Part shown: piece by piece, positions 37,020 through 48,442 of the stretch
Layout of the letters: every line of letters begins with the position of its first letter
Position numbering within the stretch: the first letter of the stretch is position 1
From: Acidimicrobiales bacterium
Lineage (GTDB): Bacteria > Actinomycetota > Acidimicrobiia > Acidimicrobiales > Aldehydirespiratoraceae
Direction of reading: 5' to 3'
Assembly: GCA_029263175.1 (NCBI GenBank)
Contig: JAJCXZ010000061.1
Location: 1 to 64,000, forward strand
Length of the DNA stretch: 64,000 nt
Notes under the pieces: model-generated
What the model saw: only the letters and a program-made list of their open reading frames with translations
The model's database searches: none
What the model was told of the DNA's origin: nothing
Position numbers and translations under genes: made by a program

Positions 37020-37730
37020 TCAGGGCTGGTCGAGAGATTCGACCCATTCGACACCCATGCCCGCGAGCTTGTCACGGAGACCGTAGAAGTCGAGGCCAAG
37101 CTCCCCGGCTTCGAGTCGCGCCCGAGTAGCAGTCTCCTTGTCGAGTCGGGCATTGGACTGCTGGAGCGCCCAGGCTGCTTCCGAGCGGGCGACGACGACG
37201 ACACCGTCGTCGTCGGCGCAGATCACGTCGCCGGGATTGACGATCTGGCCACCGATGCGGATCATCACGTTCACCGAGCCGGGCGTGTTCTTCACGGTGC
37301 CCTGGCACGACACATGCTGCGCCCAGACCGGGAACCGCATCTCGCGGAGATCGGCGGTGTCGCGCACTGCTGCGTCGATCACGAGGCCCCGCACCCCCCG
37401 TTGCATCAGGGAGGTGGCAAGCAGGTCACCGAACATGCCATGGGTGGACGGCGCGGTGTTGGCCACGACCAGGATGTCACCGGGTCGGCACTGCTCGACG
37501 GCAGCATGGATCATGCCGTTGTCGCCAGGGTGACTGAGCACGGTCACGGCGTTGCCCGCGACCTTCCTGCCCTGCTGGATGGGACGGATCTCGGGGCCGA
37601 CGTAGCCCCTGCGTCCGATCGCCTCATGGACGGTGGCGGTGCCGATCGGTGCCAACTGGTCGACGAGGTCGAGCTCAGTGCGGTCGATCGACGTGACCAC
37701 GACGTGGCGGGGTCCGTGGTTGGTGGTCAT
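37020..37730 (-). CDS. ligK: LigK: 4-carboxy-4-hydroxy-2-oxoadipate aldolase (RraA fold)
   Basis: This 236-residue RraA-like class II aldolase carries TATVHEAIGRRG, VEQCRPGDILVVAN, GMFGDLLATSLMQRGVRGLVIDAAVRD and ADDDGVVVV, typical of LigK/ProA. It splits 4-carboxy-4-hydroxy-2-oxoadipate into pyruvate and oxaloacetate, the last step of protocatechuate 4,5-cleavage. The Arg and Asp of VIDAAVRD match the metal and substrate site. The start overlaps the ligJ stop (ATGA). Confidence 0.93.
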   Translation of the reverse strand: MTTNHGPRHVVVTSIDRTELDLVDQLAPIGTATVHEAIGRRGYVGPEIRPIQQGRKVAGNAVTVLSHPGDNGMIHAAVEQCRPGDILVVANTAPSTHGMFGDLLATSLMQRGVRGLVIDAAVRDTADLREMRFPVWAQHVSCQGTVKNTPGSVNVMIRIGGQIVNPGDVICADDDGVVVVARSEAAWALQQSNARLDKETATRARLEAGELGLDFYGLRDKLAGMGVEWVESLDQP

Positions 37731-38734
37731 ACCGGTGCTCCCAAGCGCGGGAAGACCCGCCTGATGTTGTGCTCGTAGATCTCGGCACGGTCGTCGGCGG
37801 AGATGGATGCCCCGTCGAGATAGATCTTCGTGTCGTCGTAGTAGTTGCCAGTGTCGGGGTCGATACCGCGCACGGCGCCGACCATCTCCGAAGCAAACAG
37901 GACATTGTCGACAGGCACGACGTCGACGAGAAGGTCGATGCCCGGCTGGTGGTACACGCAGGTGTCGAACCAGATGTGGTCGAGCAAACCGTCGAAGTCC
38001 CACCCCTTGTCCTGGGCCATGCCCTTGAACCGCCCCCAGTGATACGGAACCGCTCCCCCGCCGTGCGGAATGATCCAACGCAGACCCGGGAAGTCCTTCA
38101 TGAATCCTGACGTGAGCGCCTGCACGAAGGCGGTCGTGTCGGCGCCGAGGTAGTGCGATCCCGTGGTGAAGAAGTGGTCGTTGCAGGAGGTGGAGACGTG
38201 GATCATCCCTGGCACGTCGAGTTCCTGCATCTTCTCCCAGAGCGGCCACCAGTACTGGTCCCAGAGCGGCGGGCCGGTCCAGAACCCGCCGGACGGATCG
38301 GGGTTGACGTTGCACCCGATGAACCCCATTTCCTCGACACAGCGTTCGAGTTCGCGAACCGATGAGTCGATCGCCACTCCCGGTGACTGGGGAAGCTGGC
38401 AAACCGGGGTGAAATTAGCGGGGTAGAGATCACAGACCCGGCGAACGAGTTCATTCTGATGCTCGGTCCAGAACCGGGAGGTGTGCTCGTTGCCCACGTG
38501 GTGACCCATCCAACTGGCCCGGGGCGAGAAGATCGTGAGATCGGTTCCGCGTTCGCGTTGGAGTCTCAGCTGGGCGCCTTCGAGGCTCTCGCGGATGGCG
38601 TCATCACCGACATCCATGATCCCCTTCTCCCCGACGTGCGAGGGATCGGATTCCACTGCTGCCCGTTGTGCGTCGCGCCACTCGCCGACCGGTGGCGGGG
38701 TTGTGGTGTAGTGGCCATGGCAATCGATGATCAT
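37727..38734 (-). CDS. ligJ: LigJ: 4-oxalomesaconate hydratase
   Basis: This 335-residue amidohydrolase-fold protein begins MIIDCHGHYTT (metal HxH) and has FSPRASWMGHHVG, NPDPSGGFWTGPPL, MIHVSTSCNDHFFTTGSHYL, PHGGGAVPYHWGRF and DTCVYHQPGIDLL, all characteristic of LigJ. It hydrates 4-oxalomesaconate to 4-carboxy-4-hydroxy-2-oxoadipate. The start at 38734 has a GGGAG site; the earlier ATG at 38800 would cross the operator. It heads a three-gene operon with ligK and the LLM gene. Confidence 0.94.
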   Translation of the reverse strand: MIIDCHGHYTTTPPPVGEWRDAQRAAVESDPSHVGEKGIMDVGDDAIRESLEGAQLRLQRERGTDLTIFSPRASWMGHHVGNEHTSRFWTEHQNELVRRVCDLYPANFTPVCQLPQSPGVAIDSSVRELERCVEEMGFIGCNVNPDPSGGFWTGPPLWDQYWWPLWEKMQELDVPGMIHVSTSCNDHFFTTGSHYLGADTTAFVQALTSGFMKDFPGLRWIIPHGGGAVPYHWGRFKGMAQDKGWDFDGLLDHIWFDTCVYHQPGIDLLVDVVPVDNVLFASEMVGAVRGIDPDTGNYYDDTKIYLDGASISADDRAEIYEHNIRRVFPRLGAPV

Positions 38735-38746
38735 CGAGTGCTCCCA

Positions 38747-38780
38747 GATTGTCGACAATCGTGTGGACAGTCTGACATAC
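38747..38780. promoter_or_regulatory. Operator and promoter between ligJ and pobA
   Basis: GATTGTCGACAATC (38747-38760) is a perfect 14-bp palindrome sharing TTGTCGACA with the ligC/ligU site. It overlaps a likely plus-strand promoter: TCGACA (38752-38757), a 17-base spacer and CATACT (38775-38780). A protein bound here would block pobA and also lie close to the ligJ start, explaining joint repression. Confidence 0.62.
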
Positions 38781-38820
38781 TCGGGCGGGACACTGCACAC
38801 AAGAACGTCTCAGGGGAGAG

Positions 38821-40011
38821 ATGCGCACGAAGGTCGTGATCGTAGGAGGCGGCCCGGCAGGAATGTTGCTGTCCCAGATCCTGCACCGCGCCGAGATCGA
38901 CCACGTCGTTCTCGAGCGGCAGACTCGCAATTATGTGCTCGGGCGCATCCGCGCGGGCATTCTGGAGTGGAGCTCGGTCGAGGTCATCCGCGCCGCCGGT
39001 GTCAGCACTCGCATGGATGCCGAAGGCGAAGCCCACGACCTCGTCAACCTGGCCTGGGGCGGTGAGCATGTGCTTCCGATCCGGGTGAAGGAGCTCACCG
39101 GTCGTCAGATGATGGCTTACGGCCAAACAGAGTTGCAGCAGGATCTCTACAACGCGGCCGACGACAATGGCACCTCGCTGCTCTTCTCCGCCGACGATGT
39201 CGCCGTAAACGACGTCACAACCGAGTCGCCCCACGTGACCTTCCGCCACAACGGCGCCGACGAGCGGATCGACTGCGACTACGTCGCCGGCTGCGACGGT
39301 TTCCATGGCGTCAGCCGAGCAGCAATCCCCGAGGCAGAACGCACCGAGTATGAACGCACGTACCCGTTTGGCTGGCTCGGCATTCTCTCGGAGACTCCAC
39401 CACTCCCCCATCTCGTCTACACCAATCATGAGCGGGGCTTCGGTCTGTGCAGCACCCGTAACCCGATGCTCAGCCGGTATTACGTGCAGTGCCCGATCGA
39501 GGACCATGTCGACGACTGGAGCGACGATCGCTTCTGGTCCGAGCTCAGTGCTCGTCTCCCCGGCGAGGTGGCCGACCGGGTCGTCACCGGTCCGAGCATC
39601 GAGAAGTCGATCGCGCCGCTGCGGAGCTTCGTTGCCGAGCCCATGCGCTACGGCAACCTCTTCCTGGCCGGCGATTCCGCCCACATCGTTCCGCCCACGG
39701 GCGCCAAGGGCCTCAACCTCGCGGTCTCCGATGTGCACCTTCTGTCTCGAGCGCTCATCGCCCACTACCGAGACGGCGACACGGCACACCTCGACGGTTA
39801 TTCCGGCGAGGCGCTCGAGCGGGTGTGGGGTTCGGTGCGGTTCAGTTGGTGGATGACCACGCTGTTGCACCGCTTCCCCGACATGACCGACTTCGATCAA
39901 CGTCTGCAGGAACGGGAGCTGAGCTATCTCGCCTCATCCACCGCTGCCCAGGCGTCGATGGCCGAGCAATACGTCGGCATCCCGTTCGCCAACCCACCGG
40001 AAGAGGAGTAG
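38821..40011 (+). CDS. pobA: PobA: 4-hydroxybenzoate 3-monooxygenase
   Basis: This 396-residue FAD monooxygenase has the GGGPAGMLL dinucleotide motif, RIRAGILEW (family RVRAGVLE), YGQTELQQDL, GCDGFHG, YPFGWLGILSETPP and SIAPLRSFVAEPMRYGNLFLAGDSAHIVPPTGAKGLNLA. These match p-hydroxybenzoate hydroxylase over the whole length. It hydroxylates 4-hydroxybenzoate to protocatechuate, the substrate of the LigAB enzyme encoded next, three bases after its stop. Confidence 0.95.
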   Translation: MRTKVVIVGGGPAGMLLSQILHRAEIDHVVLERQTRNYVLGRIRAGILEWSSVEVIRAAGVSTRMDAEGEAHDLVNLAWGGEHVLPIRVKELTGRQMMAYGQTELQQDLYNAADDNGTSLLFSADDVAVNDVTTESPHVTFRHNGADERIDCDYVAGCDGFHGVSRAAIPEAERTEYERTYPFGWLGILSETPPLPHLVYTNHERGFGLCSTRNPMLSRYYVQCPIEDHVDDWSDDRFWSELSARLPGEVADRVVTGPSIEKSIAPLRSFVAEPMRYGNLFLAGDSAHIVPPTGAKGLNLAVSDVHLLSRALIAHYRDGDTAHLDGYSGEALERVWGSVRFSWWMTTLLHRFPDMTDFDQRLQERELSYLASSTAAQASMAEQYVGIPFANPPEEE

Positions 40012-40014
40012 GCC

Positions 40015-41296
<1,282 letters not shown>

Positions 41297-42943: not shown

Positions 42944-42995
42944 CCCTAACGCACACTGGGGTCTGTCCCCAGTGTGCGTTAGGGCTGTGCGTTAG
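42944..42995. repeat. Type B palindromic repeat, copy 2, plus a half-copy
   Basis: CCCTAACGCACACTGGGG and its exact complement flank TCTGT (42944-42984), giving an 18-bp perfect stem. A further partial unit TGTGCGTTAG follows (42986-42995) and supplies the TAA stop of the convergent CMD-like gene (42992-42994 on the other strand). This resembles stepwise gain or decay of repeat units. Confidence 0.88.
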
Positions 42996-43549
42996 AAGGG
43001 CGATGTCTCGCCTTCGGGGACGTCGATCTGGTGGGTGTTGAGGAGCATCGAGATCATCGTGTAGTACCCCGATGTGGCGATGAGTTCGACGACCCCGACC
43101 TCGTCGAAGTGGGCGACCGCCGCTGCATACGTGGCGTCGTCGACCTGATGGTCCACGTGAAGGGCGCGGCAGAGCCGGTAGCAGGCTTCGTCGCGAGCAT
43201 CAGCGAAAACCGGCTCGGAGCCGATCTTGATGGCCGCGATCACATCGTCGGGCACACCAGCTTCTCTCGCCATCGGCTCGTGGGCCCACCACTCGAACGG
43301 AGCCTGCCAGAACTGCCCGGCGACCAGGATGGCGAGTTCGACGAATCGACGGTCCACGACTGTCTTGCTTCGCACCGACATCCCGACCCGGGCGAGGTTT
43401 CGCCCCAGTCCCCCGGCGAGGACCATGGCGTCGAACGGCCCGCCGAGGCGACCGTCATCTCCCAGCCCACGGAGACCGACGACATTGTCGAAATGGCGCC
43501 GCTGGCCCTCATCGAGCGATTCGTGGTCGAGCGGGTTCAGCCGGCTCAC
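42992..43549 (-). CDS. Carboxymuconolactone decarboxylase (AhpD-like) family protein
   Basis: This 185-residue helical protein has the CMD pattern FVELAILVAGQFWQAPFEWWAHEPMAREAGVPDDVIAAIK and a C-terminal VELIATSGYYTMISMLLNTHQIDVP. No CxxC redox pair is present, so it is not an AhpD thiol enzyme; a decarboxylase or isomerase role is possible. GTG 43549 overlaps the MerB-like stop (GTGA), so I prefer it to the GTG at 43627. It is the last gene of the seven-gene operon. Confidence 0.82.
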   Translation of the reverse strand: MSRLNPLDHESLDEGQRRHFDNVVGLRGLGDDGRLGGPFDAMVLAGGLGRNLARVGMSVRSKTVVDRRFVELAILVAGQFWQAPFEWWAHEPMAREAGVPDDVIAAIKIGSEPVFADARDEACYRLCRALHVDHQVDDATYAAAVAHFDEVGVVELIATSGYYTMISMLLNTHQIDVPEGETSPF

Positions 43550-44244
43550 GAATCGGTCTCGACTGGTCGAGGCAAACGGGAACGCAGCTCCTTGAAGGCC
43601 GCGCCACCTTCCTCCGAACGGGTCCACGAGATGTAGTCGGATCGACCCCGTTGACGAAAGAAGGGATTGGAGAAGATGTCAGCCCATTCGGCGACAGGCT
43701 TGAGGGCGGCCGACATGGAGTCGTCGTAGCCAACCCAGTTGCGAGCGTGTTCTTCCGACCGGAAGAGGTTCATGTTCGCTCATCTGAAGGGTCGGCTATC
43801 GGCCGAACCTCCGATTTCGGCACTCGTATAGCCAACCATCGGCTCCGGCTCGACCGTCACGATTTCCTCGTCACACATCTCCAGGACCATGGCTTCGCCG
43901 CAACACAAACACGGCGCCTCGATCGTCACTGTCTTGCCCGGCACGAGCCAGCGAATGGCCGTGGCCTCCAGACCACACTGCGCGTACCAGCCGCCCTGAC
44001 CGTCGATTGTGACCTGGTACTGGGTGGGCTGCATGTTGAGAGGGGGAAACGATGCGAGAAGATCCGTGCCCGGATGCACCCACCCTGGCGTCATGCCCAC
44101 GAGCTCGTGCACGAGCTCTCGTGCCGCTTCGATCTCGATCTCGAGCTCAGCCGCAAGCTCGGTGAAGTGCGGGGCCCGCCCGGAGTCGATCACCGCGGAC
44201 ATGATCGCCGAGTAGCCACGGTCGAGTAGTTCAAGCTCTGCCAT
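43546..44244 (-). CDS. MerB-like alkylmercury-lyase family protein, candidate selenoprotein (UGA = Sec155)
   Basis: Two open segments lie in one frame, split only by a TGA at 43780-43782; read through, they give 232 residues. The first part has an N-terminal helical DNA-binding-like fold and WYAQC90GLE93AT, aligning with WCALD of MerB (catalytic C96, D99). The second part, PFR-U155-ANMNLFRSEEHARNW, aligns with SFCCHVHFF, so the UGA falls on MerB Cys159. A 6-bp stem with a GGUC loop lies 17-32 nt from the UGA. It could be an inactivated gene, but codon use stays typical after the stop and the C-terminal MNLFRSEEH block is conserved in the family. There is no merA, merR or merT. It is coupled to aconitase X and CMD-like genes, so a C-S or C-C lyase role other than mercury detoxification is possible. 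Confidence 0.76.
43751..43766 (-). promoter_or_regulatory. Candidate bacterial SECIS in the MerB-like gene
   Basis: With the U of UGA as 1, TCTTCC (17-22) pairs fully with GGAAGA (27-32) around the loop GGUC (23-26). The E. coli fdhF SECIS has the identical loop at 22-25. This is the same loop sequence and spacing as in the redoxin gene at 9697, in unrelated coding context. Confidence 0.72.
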
Positions 44245-44253
44245 CACACAGTT

Positions 44254-44673
44254 CTAGTCGTCGGCCGTCGGCCCATCATCATGCGCGGCGTCGACCTCAC
44301 AGAGATCAGTGGTGCCGGGCGACGGCATCTCATCGGCACCGACCTGCACGATCGGGCAGGTCACGCCATACAGCGCCTCCGCCACGATGACGCCGGCAAT
44401 GAGGTTGACGTCCGCTTTGGTGACGACGAGCGCGGCGGGTCCGACACCAAGCCGAAGCGCCTCACCCAGGACGCCGGGAGTTCCCGAAGAGCCTCGCGAG
44501 CCGGGCATGGCGACGATCCGGCCGGTCATTGTCTGACCGACCTCGGGGTGGCTTCGATCGATGATCAGACCAGTCTTCGGGTCGAGACCGCCCCAGAAGC
44601 TGAGTGGCTCGCTCAGGACAAGCAACCGGCCGGTCGCCTGACCGGCGTGCAATGTGCGACCATCGATCTTCAC
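44254..44673 (-). CDS. Aconitase X small (swivel) subunit
   Basis: This 139-residue protein matches the aconitase X swivel domain (DUF126): GRLLVLSEPLSFWGGLDPKTGLIIDRSHPEVGQTMTGRIVAMPGSRGSSGTPGVLGEAL. GTG 44673 overlaps the large-subunit stop (GTGA). Two-subunit AcnX enzymes dehydrate small hydroxyacids; characterised members act on cis-3-hydroxy-L-proline or mevalonate 5-phosphate. It is the partner of the preceding gene. Confidence 0.9.
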   Translation of the reverse strand: MKIDGRTLHAGQATGRLLVLSEPLSFWGGLDPKTGLIIDRSHPEVGQTMTGRIVAMPGSRGSSGTPGVLGEALRLGVGPAALVVTKADVNLIAGVIVAEALYGVTCPIVQVGADEMPSPGTTDLCEVDAAHDDGPTADD

Positions 44674-45929
44674 GCGCCCGCTCTTCGGCCCAGCCGGACT
44701 TCGCCGGCGATCGCTGAGGCCACACAGTCGGTAAGACTGGAGAAGACGACGTCGACTTCGAGGATCCCCGGGGCGTAGTACGCCCACTTGGCCGAGTTGG
44801 TCATCACCGTGCCGGTCACACCCGTCGCACGGGGCAGGTAGTAGGTGCAGGTGTCGAGCACCACGGCAAATCCCGCGGCCTCGAGAGTCGAGTCCCATCC
44901 GCGCAACTGAACCTCGGCCCACACCGATCGACTGGTGGTGACAATGGCGGTCACACTCGGATGCACCGTTGCCTCGCCCAGCACCGCGATCACCTCACCG
45001 AACTCGGCAACCGAGAAGTGCGGCGTGCCGAGGCACACGGCATTGACCGGCCCCGTAGTGACAGTCGATAGCCCCCCGAGCGTCGAACGAACCAGCGCCG
45101 CATCGACCACGGTCGTTCGCCGCGGTGCCCGGCCACCGGTTGCGTCCGACAGTGTCGGCGCTTCCGGAGTGACCCCGACGACATGAAACATCTCGACGGC
45201 GCCGGCGGTGGCTGCAGCGGCGGCGATGGCCTTGAGATCGTCCTCGCCGGCCTCCCGAAGTCCGACGATCGCGGGAACGGCAGCACCCGCCTGCCGACCG
45301 AGGATCAGGCCGAGAACGTGCGGCAGCCTCGGATCTTTCAGCTCCTCGTCGGAGAGGCGAAGCTCCAAAAGATGTGTGGCCAATCGGCCCTCGTCAGTGT
45401 GAAGGCCCACCAACGGCACCCGTCCGACGATGGCGGCGCTGATGTCGAGCAGGTCGCCGTACTTGTTGGTACGAGCACCGAGGACCGAGTTGAAGAACCC
45501 GACCGCGTTCGACTCCGATCCGACGATCTGCTGGCCCAGACCGGGACGCCCTTCGGCCTGCTGGTACGGAGCACAGCTCCACATGGGCGTGCATCCGAGC
45601 TGTCGGTAGATCTCCATCAGCCGTTCTGCGCCGGAGACCTCCTCCGGAAAGGACGCCGCCGGGCGCAGTGCCGGCGACGAGCGAGCGATCAGGCTGGCAT
45701 TCGTGTGAGTTGGCACCGACAGCTGCGCCCCCTCGGCCAGCAGGAACTCGGCGAAGTCGAGCGACAACTTCCCCGAGTAGTGGCACGAGTTGATGTGAGC
45801 GAACTCGATCGGAACCAACGCGGTGGCACCGCTCGCCTCGGCCGCGGCGACGATGAGCTGCATGGCGAGCTGCTGTGCCCTGCCATCGTCGCCGGCCAGC
45901 CAGTGCTCCTCGGCGCCGGTGAGCTTCAT
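44670..45929 (-). CDS. Aconitase X large (catalytic) subunit
   Basis: This 419-residue protein matches DUF521: MKLTGAEEHWLAGDDGRAQQLAMQLIVAAAEASGA, then VPIEFAHINSCHYSG, CTPMWSCAPYQQ, GSESNAVGFFNSVLGARTNKYGD and TCTYYLP with TNSAKWAYYAPG. The cysteines match the iron-sulfur ligands of the family. The substrate here is unknown; SDR, sulfotransferase-like and racemase-like neighbours do not match the known proline or mevalonate pathways. The start at 45929 lies 13 bases after the SDR stop. Confidence 0.92.
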   Translation of the reverse strand: MKLTGAEEHWLAGDDGRAQQLAMQLIVAAAEASGATALVPIEFAHINSCHYSGKLSLDFAEFLLAEGAQLSVPTHTNASLIARSSPALRPAASFPEEVSGAERLMEIYRQLGCTPMWSCAPYQQAEGRPGLGQQIVGSESNAVGFFNSVLGARTNKYGDLLDISAAIVGRVPLVGLHTDEGRLATHLLELRLSDEELKDPRLPHVLGLILGRQAGAAVPAIVGLREAGEDDLKAIAAAAATAGAVEMFHVVGVTPEAPTLSDATGGRAPRRTTVVDAALVRSTLGGLSTVTTGPVNAVCLGTPHFSVAEFGEVIAVLGEATVHPSVTAIVTTSRSVWAEVQLRGWDSTLEAAGFAVVLDTCTYYLPRATGVTGTVMTNSAKWAYYAPGILEVDVVFSSLTDCVASAIAGEVRLGRRAGA

Positions 45930-45942
45930 CACGACGAGTGCG

Positions 45943-46713
45943 CTAGGACCGCGGGTAGAGCGTCTCGGTGTTGCCGTCGACACCGATGATCTGCCCGGAG
46001 ATGTGCCGTGCGTAGTCGCTGCACAGGTACACGATCAGATCCGCGATCTCTTCGGGATCGACGTAGCACTGCATCGATGTGCCGATTGCATACATGCGTC
46101 GCACGACATCGGGATCGAGGTCCTCGTTGGCGGCGTGGTCCCTGATTACACCCTCCATGCGGTCGCCGTTGACGTTGCCGGGCACGATTCCGTTGACCCG
46201 GATGTTGTCGGGGCCGAGCTCCATGGCCAGCGACTCGGTGAACCCGCTGACCGCCCACTTCGCCGCGACATACGGCGAGCGGTTCGGGAAGCCGAGGATT
46301 CCGGCGGCCGACACCATGTTGATGATGGTGCCGTGCCGCTGGGCCTTGAATACCGGGGCGACCCGCCGGGCGCAATAGAACTGGGCATCGATACACACGG
46401 CCATCGTGAGCCGCCACTCTTCGTCGGTGACGTCTTCGACCGGCTTTGTCGGGCCACCGATGCCGGCGTTGTTCACCATGATGTCGAGCCCGCCCGGAAG
46501 GATCTCGTCGAAGATCGTGTCGAGCTCCGCTGACTTGGTGACGTCGCACTGCCAAGTCGCGATGGAGTCGGGAAGCGTCGCCAGACCGTTCGGGTCGATA
46601 TCGCAGGTGAAGACTTCCGCGCCGAGCCGGTCCATCGCCAGCGCCGTCGCACGCCCCATGCCGGCACCACCGGCGGTGATGAAGGCTCGCTTGCCTTCGA
46701 GTGAGATCTGCAC
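45943..46713 (-). CDS. Short-chain dehydrogenase/reductase
   Basis: This 256-residue SDR has TAGGAGMG, VNNAG, the Ser of NMVSAAG, YVAAK and the C-terminal QIIGVDGNTE. It probably interconverts a hydroxyl and a keto group in the aconitase X pathway. The gene sits between the sulfotransferase-like gene (3 bases) and aconitase X (13 bases), so they are one transcript. Confidence 0.9.
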   Translation of the reverse strand: MQISLEGKRAFITAGGAGMGRATALAMDRLGAEVFTCDIDPNGLATLPDSIATWQCDVTKSAELDTIFDEILPGGLDIMVNNAGIGGPTKPVEDVTDEEWRLTMAVCIDAQFYCARRVAPVFKAQRHGTIINMVSAAGILGFPNRSPYVAAKWAVSGFTESLAMELGPDNIRVNGIVPGNVNGDRMEGVIRDHAANEDLDPDVVRRMYAIGTSMQCYVDPEEIADLIVYLCSDYARHISGQIIGVDGNTETLYPRS

Positions 46714-46716
46714 TGG

Positions 46717-47478
46717 CTACTCCTGTGGGGTCGGGTTTGGGGTCGGCGTGAACCGGTGGCGATACAGCTCTTCGAAAAGCGGGAGGCTGCGTTCATAGAA
46801 CTCGAACAAGCGCTGGTTGTCCTCGAGCGGCGCGTACTCGGTGGTCGACTTCTGGATCCCGGTGCTCGCCCTGAGATTGTCGTGCCATGGCCCGGTGCCC
46901 TCGCCGTACCAGCTGACTTCGTTGCGGTCGCCCGCCTCCCACTCGAGCGCCTCGGGCTTGTGGACGATTCCGACAGCGTCGCAGTAGGCGCTCGCGGTGC
47001 CCGCGGGATCATCCAGCAGGTCACCGGAGTACATCACCGGGGGTGGCGTGCCATCGCGGTCGGCGAGGCGAACGAACAGCCGGTGCAAAGACTCGAACCC
47101 GACCTCCTCAAATGTGCAATCGGGCCAGTGCTTGGCGAGACCCTGCACGACCCGCTTCGGGTCACGGATGAGGAAGCTGTGGGTCATGTTCGCAAGTCGC
47201 TCCTCGGTGAAGGAGTGCTCGGCCGAATAGGCGAAGTCCTTGACGAAGACGTTCGCGCCGTCGGCACCGTGGGCAGCGTTCAGCGCTGCCCAGGTCGACG
47301 CGAAGTTGTGGCCGGGCTTGGCTTCCACGTCGGCGTCACGATCGCTCTGGCGATCCTCGCCGTAGTAGTAGGTCTCGTTCCACGGCTCGTGGAAGCACGT
47401 GAAATCGCCGCGCTGGCGCATCATCCATTCGAACGCGGTCGATGTCGATCGTGGCGTTGCCCAGAGTGTGAGGAACAT
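46717..47478 (-). CDS. Sulfotransferase-like P-loop protein
   Basis: This 253-residue protein opens with LWATPRSTSTAFEWMM, a 5'-phosphosulfate-binding-like loop, and has LIRDPKRVVQGLAKHW, which resembles the 3'-phosphate-binding RDPR segment. Family members move sulfate from PAPS to hydroxyls, but many bacterial relatives are uncharacterised. It starts exactly after the racemase-like stop. In an otherwise catabolic operon a sulfotransferase is unexpected. Confidence 0.75.
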   Translation of the reverse strand: MFLTLWATPRSTSTAFEWMMRQRGDFTCFHEPWNETYYYGEDRQSDRDADVEAKPGHNFASTWAALNAAHGADGANVFVKDFAYSAEHSFTEERLANMTHSFLIRDPKRVVQGLAKHWPDCTFEEVGFESLHRLFVRLADRDGTPPPVMYSGDLLDDPAGTASAYCDAVGIVHKPEALEWEAGDRNEVSWYGEGTGPWHDNLRASTGIQKSTTEYAPLEDNQRLFEFYERSLPLFEELYRHRFTPTPNPTPQE

Positions 47479-48309
47479 CTACATCGATCCTTGAAGTGAG
47501 GTCAGCAACGAGCCGTGTCGGCCAAGCGGCGCTACGCCGAGCGTGCGGAAGATCTGCCAATAGAGCGTGATGTCGGCAGCCAGCACCGGCTTCTCGATGT
47601 CGGCCTCGATGTCGGCGGCCAGGGAGACGAGACGTTGCGGCAGGCCGACGGCGTCGCGGTAGTTCGACATGCCGTTGACCAGCACCGCATCGACATCCGG
47701 CGCCTGTTCGATTGTGTGGCGCATCGAATCCAGCGCGAGTTCGGCGGGGAAGATCCAGGTGTGGTCGTTCACCTCTTGCTGGGTCTCGTACCAGCCCTGG
47801 TCAACGAAGTTGCCATACCAGACCACATCGATGTCGGCGCTGCGCAGGAACCGTACGACGCCATCTCGCCAGTCCGGCCAGAAGTAGACGGAGTTCAGCG
47901 CCACCCGTTCGTAACCGTGCGCTTCACATGCTTCGACCAGGGTGAGGCCGGCCATGTGGAACGGGGTCTCGTACCGCTCGCTGACCTCTGCCACAAACGC
48001 ACGAATGTCGTGCACGTCGGTGCCGTTGGCGTGAACCCAGTTGGTGCCGACCTGCCCGACCACATCGGCCCCGCTGTTGCTCATCGTGTGGACGACTTCT
48101 TCCAGGAGATGGAAGTTGTCGGCCCGTTGCCCGAGCTCATGGGCGTATCCAGGGACATGAAGGAGGCGCCCGTGCACGCCGACCGTCTCGGGAGCGATCC
48201 GCAGAAAGTCGCTCGGCGCCCCATCGAAATCCATCGGCGGCGCCGTGAACCCAACCTGATGGGGGAAGAGCTTGTGGGCCGGATCCGACCACTTCTCAGG
48301 CTTGGTCAT
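47479..48309 (-). CDS. Asp/Glu racemase / maleate isomerase superfamily protein lacking both Cys
   Basis: This 276-residue protein has the fold pattern of maleate isomerase and arylmalonate decarboxylase: HELGQRADNFHLLEEVVHTMSNSGADVVGQVGTN, AGLTLVEACEAHGYERVALNSVYF and DVDAVLVNGMSNYRD. Where the family has its two catalytic cysteines (first in the ACTSG-like loop, second in SCTNLR) this protein has GTN and MSN. It is therefore either inactive, or uses a different chemistry. ATG 48309 has an AAGGA site; the ATG at 48321 is less well placed. It heads the operon. Confidence 0.72.
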   Translation of the reverse strand: MTKPEKWSDPAHKLFPHQVGFTAPPMDFDGAPSDFLRIAPETVGVHGRLLHVPGYAHELGQRADNFHLLEEVVHTMSNSGADVVGQVGTNWVHANGTDVHDIRAFVAEVSERYETPFHMAGLTLVEACEAHGYERVALNSVYFWPDWRDGVVRFLRSADIDVVWYGNFVDQGWYETQQEVNDHTWIFPAELALDSMRHTIEQAPDVDAVLVNGMSNYRDAVGLPQRLVSLAADIEADIEKPVLAADITLYWQIFRTLGVAPLGRHGSLLTSLQGSM

Positions 48310-48326
48310 CGGGTCCTTCATCGAGA

Positions 48327-48344
48327 ACTGGACGCTTGTCCAGT
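48327..48344. promoter_or_regulatory. Palindrome ACTGGAC-GCTT-GTCCAGT before the seven-gene operon
   Basis: A perfect 7+7 inverted repeat lies 18 bases upstream of the first start codon of the operon, a position that would block transcription or initiation. Its inner 14 bases are identical to 11130-11143. Confidence 0.52.
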
Positions 48345-48377
48345 GCGCAAACCTAGATGGAAGCCAGGATGCTGTCC

Positions 48378-48442
48378 ACGTTCTTGAACTCGTGTACTCA
48401 CGTATCTCTATGGACAACGTCCGTACACGAGTTCAAGAACGT
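48378..48442 (-). terminator. Long 20-bp inverted repeat after the 48442 gene
   Basis: ACGTTCTTGAACTCGTGTAC (48378-48397) and its exact complement (48423-48442) enclose 25 bases. The right arm begins within the TGA stop of the upstream gene, as in the type A and B repeats, although the sequence is unrelated. It probably ends that transcript before the seven-gene operon promoter. Confidence 0.6.

Follow-up and report, generated by a model that had tools for sequence, protein, structure and literature searches.

On the minus strand of the window, the whole 64,000-nucleotide stretch of an Acidimicrobiales genome analysed here, a gene resembling that of MerB, the methylmercury-degrading enzyme of bacteria, is interrupted by an in-frame TGA codon. 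Is this gene broken, or is the UGA read as selenocysteine (Sec), and what would such a selenoprotein do? From 44244 to 43546 the gene runs in a single frame, with the TGA at 43780-43782 as the sole interruption. The features of the gene to which we refer below are, with residues numbered from the ATG start:

43546..44244, minus strand: predicted Sec-containing MerB-family gene (start ATG 44244 or GTG 44247; final stop TGA 43546-43548; 232 aa)
43975..43977, minus strand: C90, at the MerB Cys96 position by alignment (UGA, predicted Sec, in a double-Sec subgroup)
43966..43968, minus strand: E93, at the MerB Asp99 position (Glu in the clade of the window protein, Asp in the sister clade)
43900..43911, minus strand: C112-L-C-C115 (C112 corresponds to MerB Cys117; C115 is an extra Cys, present in 46/56 Sec members)
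43780..43782, minus strand: UGA codon, predicted to be read as selenocysteine, U155, at the MerB Cys159 position (TGA in 56 homologues, Cys in 24)

The read-through protein, 232 aa from the ATG and 233 aa from the GTG at 44247, matches the Pfam family MerB (PF03243) with 60.1 bits (E 2.8e-16), above the curated cut-off of 27. Across the whole genome (4.4 Mb in 111 contigs, 97% complete), a Pfam search gave a single MerB match, which spans this TGA and has one TGA inside. Both the sequence and this match agree with the first-pass annotation, in which two same-frame pieces separated by one TGA were joined to a MerB-like protein, and the alignment to MerB confirms its assignment of the UGA to the Cys159 position and of C90 and E93 to those of Cys96 and Asp99, with C112 at Cys117. 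The final stop is overlapped by the GTG start of the downstream gene (GTGA, 4 nt), as is expected if ribosomes get to the second stop and not the first.

Homologues were collected from named metagenome-assembled genomes, a class-wide census, and searches of the phylum of the window and that of its relative L014. After removal of duplicates, the column of the UGA holds TGA in 56 homologues and Cys in 24, so that the question of whether Cys aligns with U is answered positively; these counts, like those for the hairpin below, do not represent independent events, as the sequences share ancestry. The TGA homologues come from Actinomycetota and Chloroflexota, and this conservation contradicts a natural stop or a base error at the TGA. 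The closest relatives with TGA are actinobacterial or acidimicrobial (L010-L013, 66-87% identical) and Chloroflexi (L014, 47%), and all five of these genomes contain selA. Mapped on the tree, the U/C state requires 4 changes, compared with at least 16 for shuffled labels. The class-wide census found a relative in 20 of 395 genomes, with TGA copies in 18. Of these 18, 17 contain selA, compared with 260 of the 395 overall (hypergeometric p 0.005), and the one TGA-copy genome without selA is 56% complete.

Between the window gene and L010 or L011, dN/dS is 0.05-0.07 before the UGA and 0.06 after it; against the more distant L012, the value past the UGA is about 0.25-0.32, still below 1. By this measure, purifying selection on the protein extends past the UGA. 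In one genome (G521) a copy from the sister clade, clade B (L061/L073), carries a frameshift just before the Sec site while its hairpin sequence is intact, which may reflect recent decay or an assembly error.

Past the UGA, the transcript is predicted to fold into a hairpin of the bacterial SECIS (bSECIS) type:

43751..43766, minus strand: putative bacterial SECIS hairpin UCUUCC-GGUC-GGAAGA with a 6-bp stem (at a constant position, with compensatory changes; Cys homologues lack it)
43757..43760, minus strand: GGUC apical loop, presumably recognised by SelB (the selD and fdhA hairpins of the genome carry it too)

The stem, which had been correctly described as 6 bp closed by a GGUC loop, starts 14 nt past the UGA, or 17 nt counted from the U. 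The published bSECIS model (PMC13188914) specifies a loop of 3-9 nt with a G in the first two positions, a stem of 4-16 bp, a UGA-loop spacing of 16-37 nt and a minimum free energy (MFE) of at most -7.5 kcal/mol. With its 4-nt loop, 6-bp stem and spacing of 19 nt the window hairpin fits this model, its MFE being borderline for the hairpin alone (-7.5 kcal/mol) and -14.1 for 60 nt. Taken by itself the hairpin proves little, because the codons of the downstream peptide are prone to base-pairing in any case. Synonymous recoding of this peptide gave a stem of 6 bp or more in 70% of trials, so the hairpin of the single sequence is not above chance, and its significance was dropped as evidence.

It is the comparison of Sec with Cys homologues, together with codon bias, that raises the hairpin above chance. 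A stem of at least 5 bp at one fixed distance past the TGA is present in 55 of the 56 Sec homologues but in none of the 24 Cys homologues, and the loop is GGUC in 54 of the Sec homologues, GUUC in one and AGUC in one. Of the 336 cells for inner pairs 1-6, 333 are paired, and two-sided, compensatory changes occur at pairs 1, 2, 4 and 6; these include C-G to A-U in L014, C-G to U-A in L063 and U-A to G-C in L065, and changes of U-A to C-G and to U-G are also seen. Within the hairpin, Arg is encoded by CGG in 41/42 cases and Ser by TCG in 41/42, whereas the rest of these genes uses the two codons at 26% and 40%. Between the window gene and L010/L011, dS is only 0.36 over the hairpin segment (15 codons), down from about 1.3. 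The highly conserved peptide FRSEEH, which most Cys homologues have lost or changed (e.g. CSTIRLACDRE in L058), is thus probably a shadow of the RNA.

The genome was found to encode all four components of the Sec machinery that the first-pass annotation had suggested looking for: selA directly followed by selB, the tRNA-Sec gene selC (64 bits) and selD (355 bits). Two of its other genes are themselves Sec genes, namely selD (L133), with the TGA in HGAG-U-GCK, and the formate dehydrogenase alpha gene fdhA (L135), with the TGA in CNRT-U-HAPSVVGL. TGA sites in SelD and formate dehydrogenase are textbook places for Sec, and the hairpins that follow them in this genome carry GGUC in the loop, as in the window gene. 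The core proposal, that the gene encodes a MerB-fold selenoprotein whose Sec takes the place of Cys159, has therefore come through every sequence test suggested for it. It is highly improbable that the UGA acts as a normal stop or stems from a sequencing error, with the locus being a pseudogene or a natural truncation. In favour of this reading, a standard annotation would terminate the gene there, and two separate open reading frames are listed; against it, 56 homologues from two phyla share the TGA at this one codon together with a conserved hairpin, dN/dS stays low after it, and the genome contains the Sec machinery. Judged from the sequences, the apparently broken gene is almost certainly an intact selenium-containing relative of MerB in which UGA is read as Sec.

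A profile built from 24 relatives matched MerB2 of Bacillus megaterium (PDB 5c17) with an E-value of 4.8e-21 and MerB with about 1e-10 to 1e-9. We also built an AlphaFold2 model from six sequences; its confidence is middling, with a mean pLDDT of 76 and with residues 56-74 and 145-154, the latter adjoining U155, below 50. Its best structure matches are mercury-bound MerB2 and MerB (Z 13.5 to 13.1), while unrelated chains stay below Z 5; the superposition on 5c17 has a Z of 13.5 and an rmsd of 3.8 over 179 residues. As modelled, the window protein has the MerB fold.

With MerB2 (5c17) and classical MerB (3f0o, 3f2f) the protein shares this fold (Z about 13), Cys or Sec at the positions of Cys96, Cys117 and Cys159, and the TCxxxxxF context at position 159. 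It differs from both in having Sec in place of Cys159, the additional Cys115, an identity of only about 15-22% and no mer operon. C, E and U take the places of the canonical Cys96, Asp99, Cys159 triad and resemble it chemically; where the window protein has Glu at the Asp99 position, MerB2 has Ser. Scores against the canonical alkylmercury lyase models NF009710 and NF033555 (35.4 and 29.8 bits) lie below the cut-offs of 193 and 200. The family splits into two clades: clade A, which contains the window protein, has Glu at the Asp99 place, and clade B carries Asp99 and, in most members, a WWDDI motif. Most Sec members have the C112/C115 CxxC, which is less common among the Cys members.

In 11 clade A sequences of the final set, from both phyla, a second TGA occupies the Cys96 codon (L014, L027-L032, L042, L046, L047 and L104), and both catalytic residues would therefore be Sec. 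One genome from the phylum of L014, Chloroflexi (G805), contains three such double-TGA MerB-like genes. In most of ten double-Sec members the Cys96-position UGA is followed by GCURGC...GCUGGC; because the fold is not uniform, a second hairpin at this place is only likely. Two double-Sec MerB domains are the N-terminal parts of larger proteins, joined to a nucleotide cyclase domain in L028 (1498-2679) and to an AAA domain in L029 (577-2133), which suggests an organometal-sensing or regulated form.

The window gene lies within a run of genes of catabolic appearance:

47479..48417, minus strand: arylmalonate decarboxylase / maleate isomerase-like protein, whose gene opens the run (PF17645, 26.9 bits)
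46717..47478, minus strand: sulfotransferase-like protein (PF19798)
45943..46713, minus strand: short-chain dehydrogenase (Pfam search)
44670..45983, minus strand: aconitase X large subunit (PF04412, 374.9 bits)
44254..44730, minus strand: aconitase X small (swivel) subunit (PF01989, 85.6 bits)
42992..43549, minus strand: downstream gene with weak similarity to carboxymuconolactone decarboxylase (CMD), below the Pfam cut-off; its GTG start overlaps the MerB stop

The aconitase X large subunit resembles cis-3-hydroxy-L-proline dehydratase, far under the model cut-off (329 of 700 bits). Adjoining the operon, at 37020-41267, genes that by eye are ligJ-, pobA-, ligA- and ligB-like resemble a protocatechuate 4,5-cleavage pathway, and similar genes also flank the Sec-MerB gene in L012. 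The operon is only partly kept in the closest relatives and not beyond them, and across 26 clustered loci no neighbour family is shared except common types such as dehydrogenases. Since the neighbours change even among the closest relatives, we dropped gene neighbourhood as a guide to function. The Sec-MerB gene thus travels independently of its neighbours, much as one would expect of a detoxification gene, and the operon says little in favour of a different function.

The remark that the operon holds no other mercury genes was borne out: none were recognised beside the window gene or its relatives, and no merA scored above the curated cut-off in the window genome, nor was a plasmid match found. 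The merA candidates were sub-threshold FAD oxidoreductases only, and the TGA that was flagged within one such gene is simply where that gene ends. The absence of merA at the cut-off therefore leaves room for a non-mercury substrate, and because no mercury genes were recognised nearby either, it is the residues and the fold that have to carry the argument for a mercury role.

With the operon a poor guide and the gene travelling alone, we favour a selenol-based variant of the MerB reaction as the most likely function. The whole explanation, a Sec-based MerB-type selenoprotein that is recoded through SelB and the hairpin and performs a MerB-like reaction on organometals, has in our estimate a probability of roughly 0.65. 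SelB, bound to the GGUC-loop hairpin 14-29 nt past the UGA, would bring Sec-tRNA to this codon, and the full 232-aa protein would be made with Sec replacing the catalytic Cys159. The Sec159 selenolate and the Cys96 thiolate would then bind the metal of an organometal, R-Hg+ being the likeliest, while Glu93, at the Asp99 position, would hand a proton to the leaving carbon and R-H would depart. Hg(II) may be held on the Se/S pair until it is taken by cellular thiols or by the extra CxxC (C112/C115). Sec should speed the attack and tighten the hold on Hg. Residues and model together make an organomercurial or related organometal lyase activity a reasonably probable assignment. Points against a MerB-like role are the Glu in place of Asp99 in the window's clade and the extra CxxC, which lies outside the known MerB mechanism; the cyclase and AAA fusions could mean sensing rather than catalysis in those double-Sec relatives.

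Two other functions have to be weighed against this one. The first-pass annotation had considered another lyase or demethylase function on account of the catabolic operon, and a MerB-fold selenoprotein acting in that pathway, for example as a C-C, C-S or C-Se lyase, would fit the tight packing of the gene between aconitase X and the CMD-like gene with its 4-nt stop/start overlap, the five upstream genes kept in L010 and L011, the CMD gene and nearby ligAB kept in L012, and the lack of merA in the genome. Against it, L010 and L011 have no CMD gene, L012 has no aconitase X run, and L013, L014 and more distant members have other neighbours without a shared set; moreover, all three MerB catalytic positions (C, E and U) are kept and the nearest solved relative is a mercury-bound MerB2. 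We therefore consider a non-mercury role unlikely. Less likely still is a sensor or trap for metals or electrophiles, whose Sec and Cys would bind Hg(II) or another soft metal without cleaving a carbon-metal bond. The N-terminal position of the double-Sec domains in L028 and L029 is in keeping with such a role, as is the metal-binding NosL among the matches of the model (Z 4.3 to 4.7), but the window protein has just one domain, with an acidic residue retained at the proton-relay position, and the sister clade B keeps Asp99.

MerB-family selenoproteins as such are already known. One of them is SaoL, for which the primary paper is Haft & Gwadz 2023. A 2026 review (PMC13188914) describes it as a MerB-like selenoprotein with a CU motif. 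Like SaoL, the window protein belongs to the MerB family and has one Sec, for which organometal chemistry is proposed; unlike SaoL, it has R-U with no Cys before the U, and no SAO genes were recognised beside its gene. Against the SaoL model NF040728 (cut-off 140 bits) it scores 31.2 and other members 39-55, and no curated model covers this branch. 'Organic mercuric lyase MerB2' is listed as a predicted selenoprotein in a 2020 review (PMC7435645); going by the name in its table alone, this is probably the same idea of a MerB-type selenoprotein. MerB is absent from the main texts of the deep-Sep, ISME J 2016 and GOS papers. No report of the window branch or of a double-Sec MerB was found in the literature searched; priority is uncertain, with the primary papers on SaoL and on the neighbourhood lying outside this search.

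For the family, we tentatively propose, at slightly less than even odds, that a large MerB branch in Actinomycetota and Chloroflexota, with Sec at Cys159 and in one subgroup at both catalytic positions, degrades methylmercury or other organometals without merA. Annotation that terminates at UGA, and surveys demanding Cys159, would miss this branch. Selenols bind mercury far more strongly than thiols, and a Sec MerB would therefore be a natural test of what led evolution to bring selenium into C-Hg chemistry; the double-Sec members would present an unusual two-selenol active site. If the proteins are active, the number of possible demethylators would increase in two phyla, via a route that is currently uncounted.
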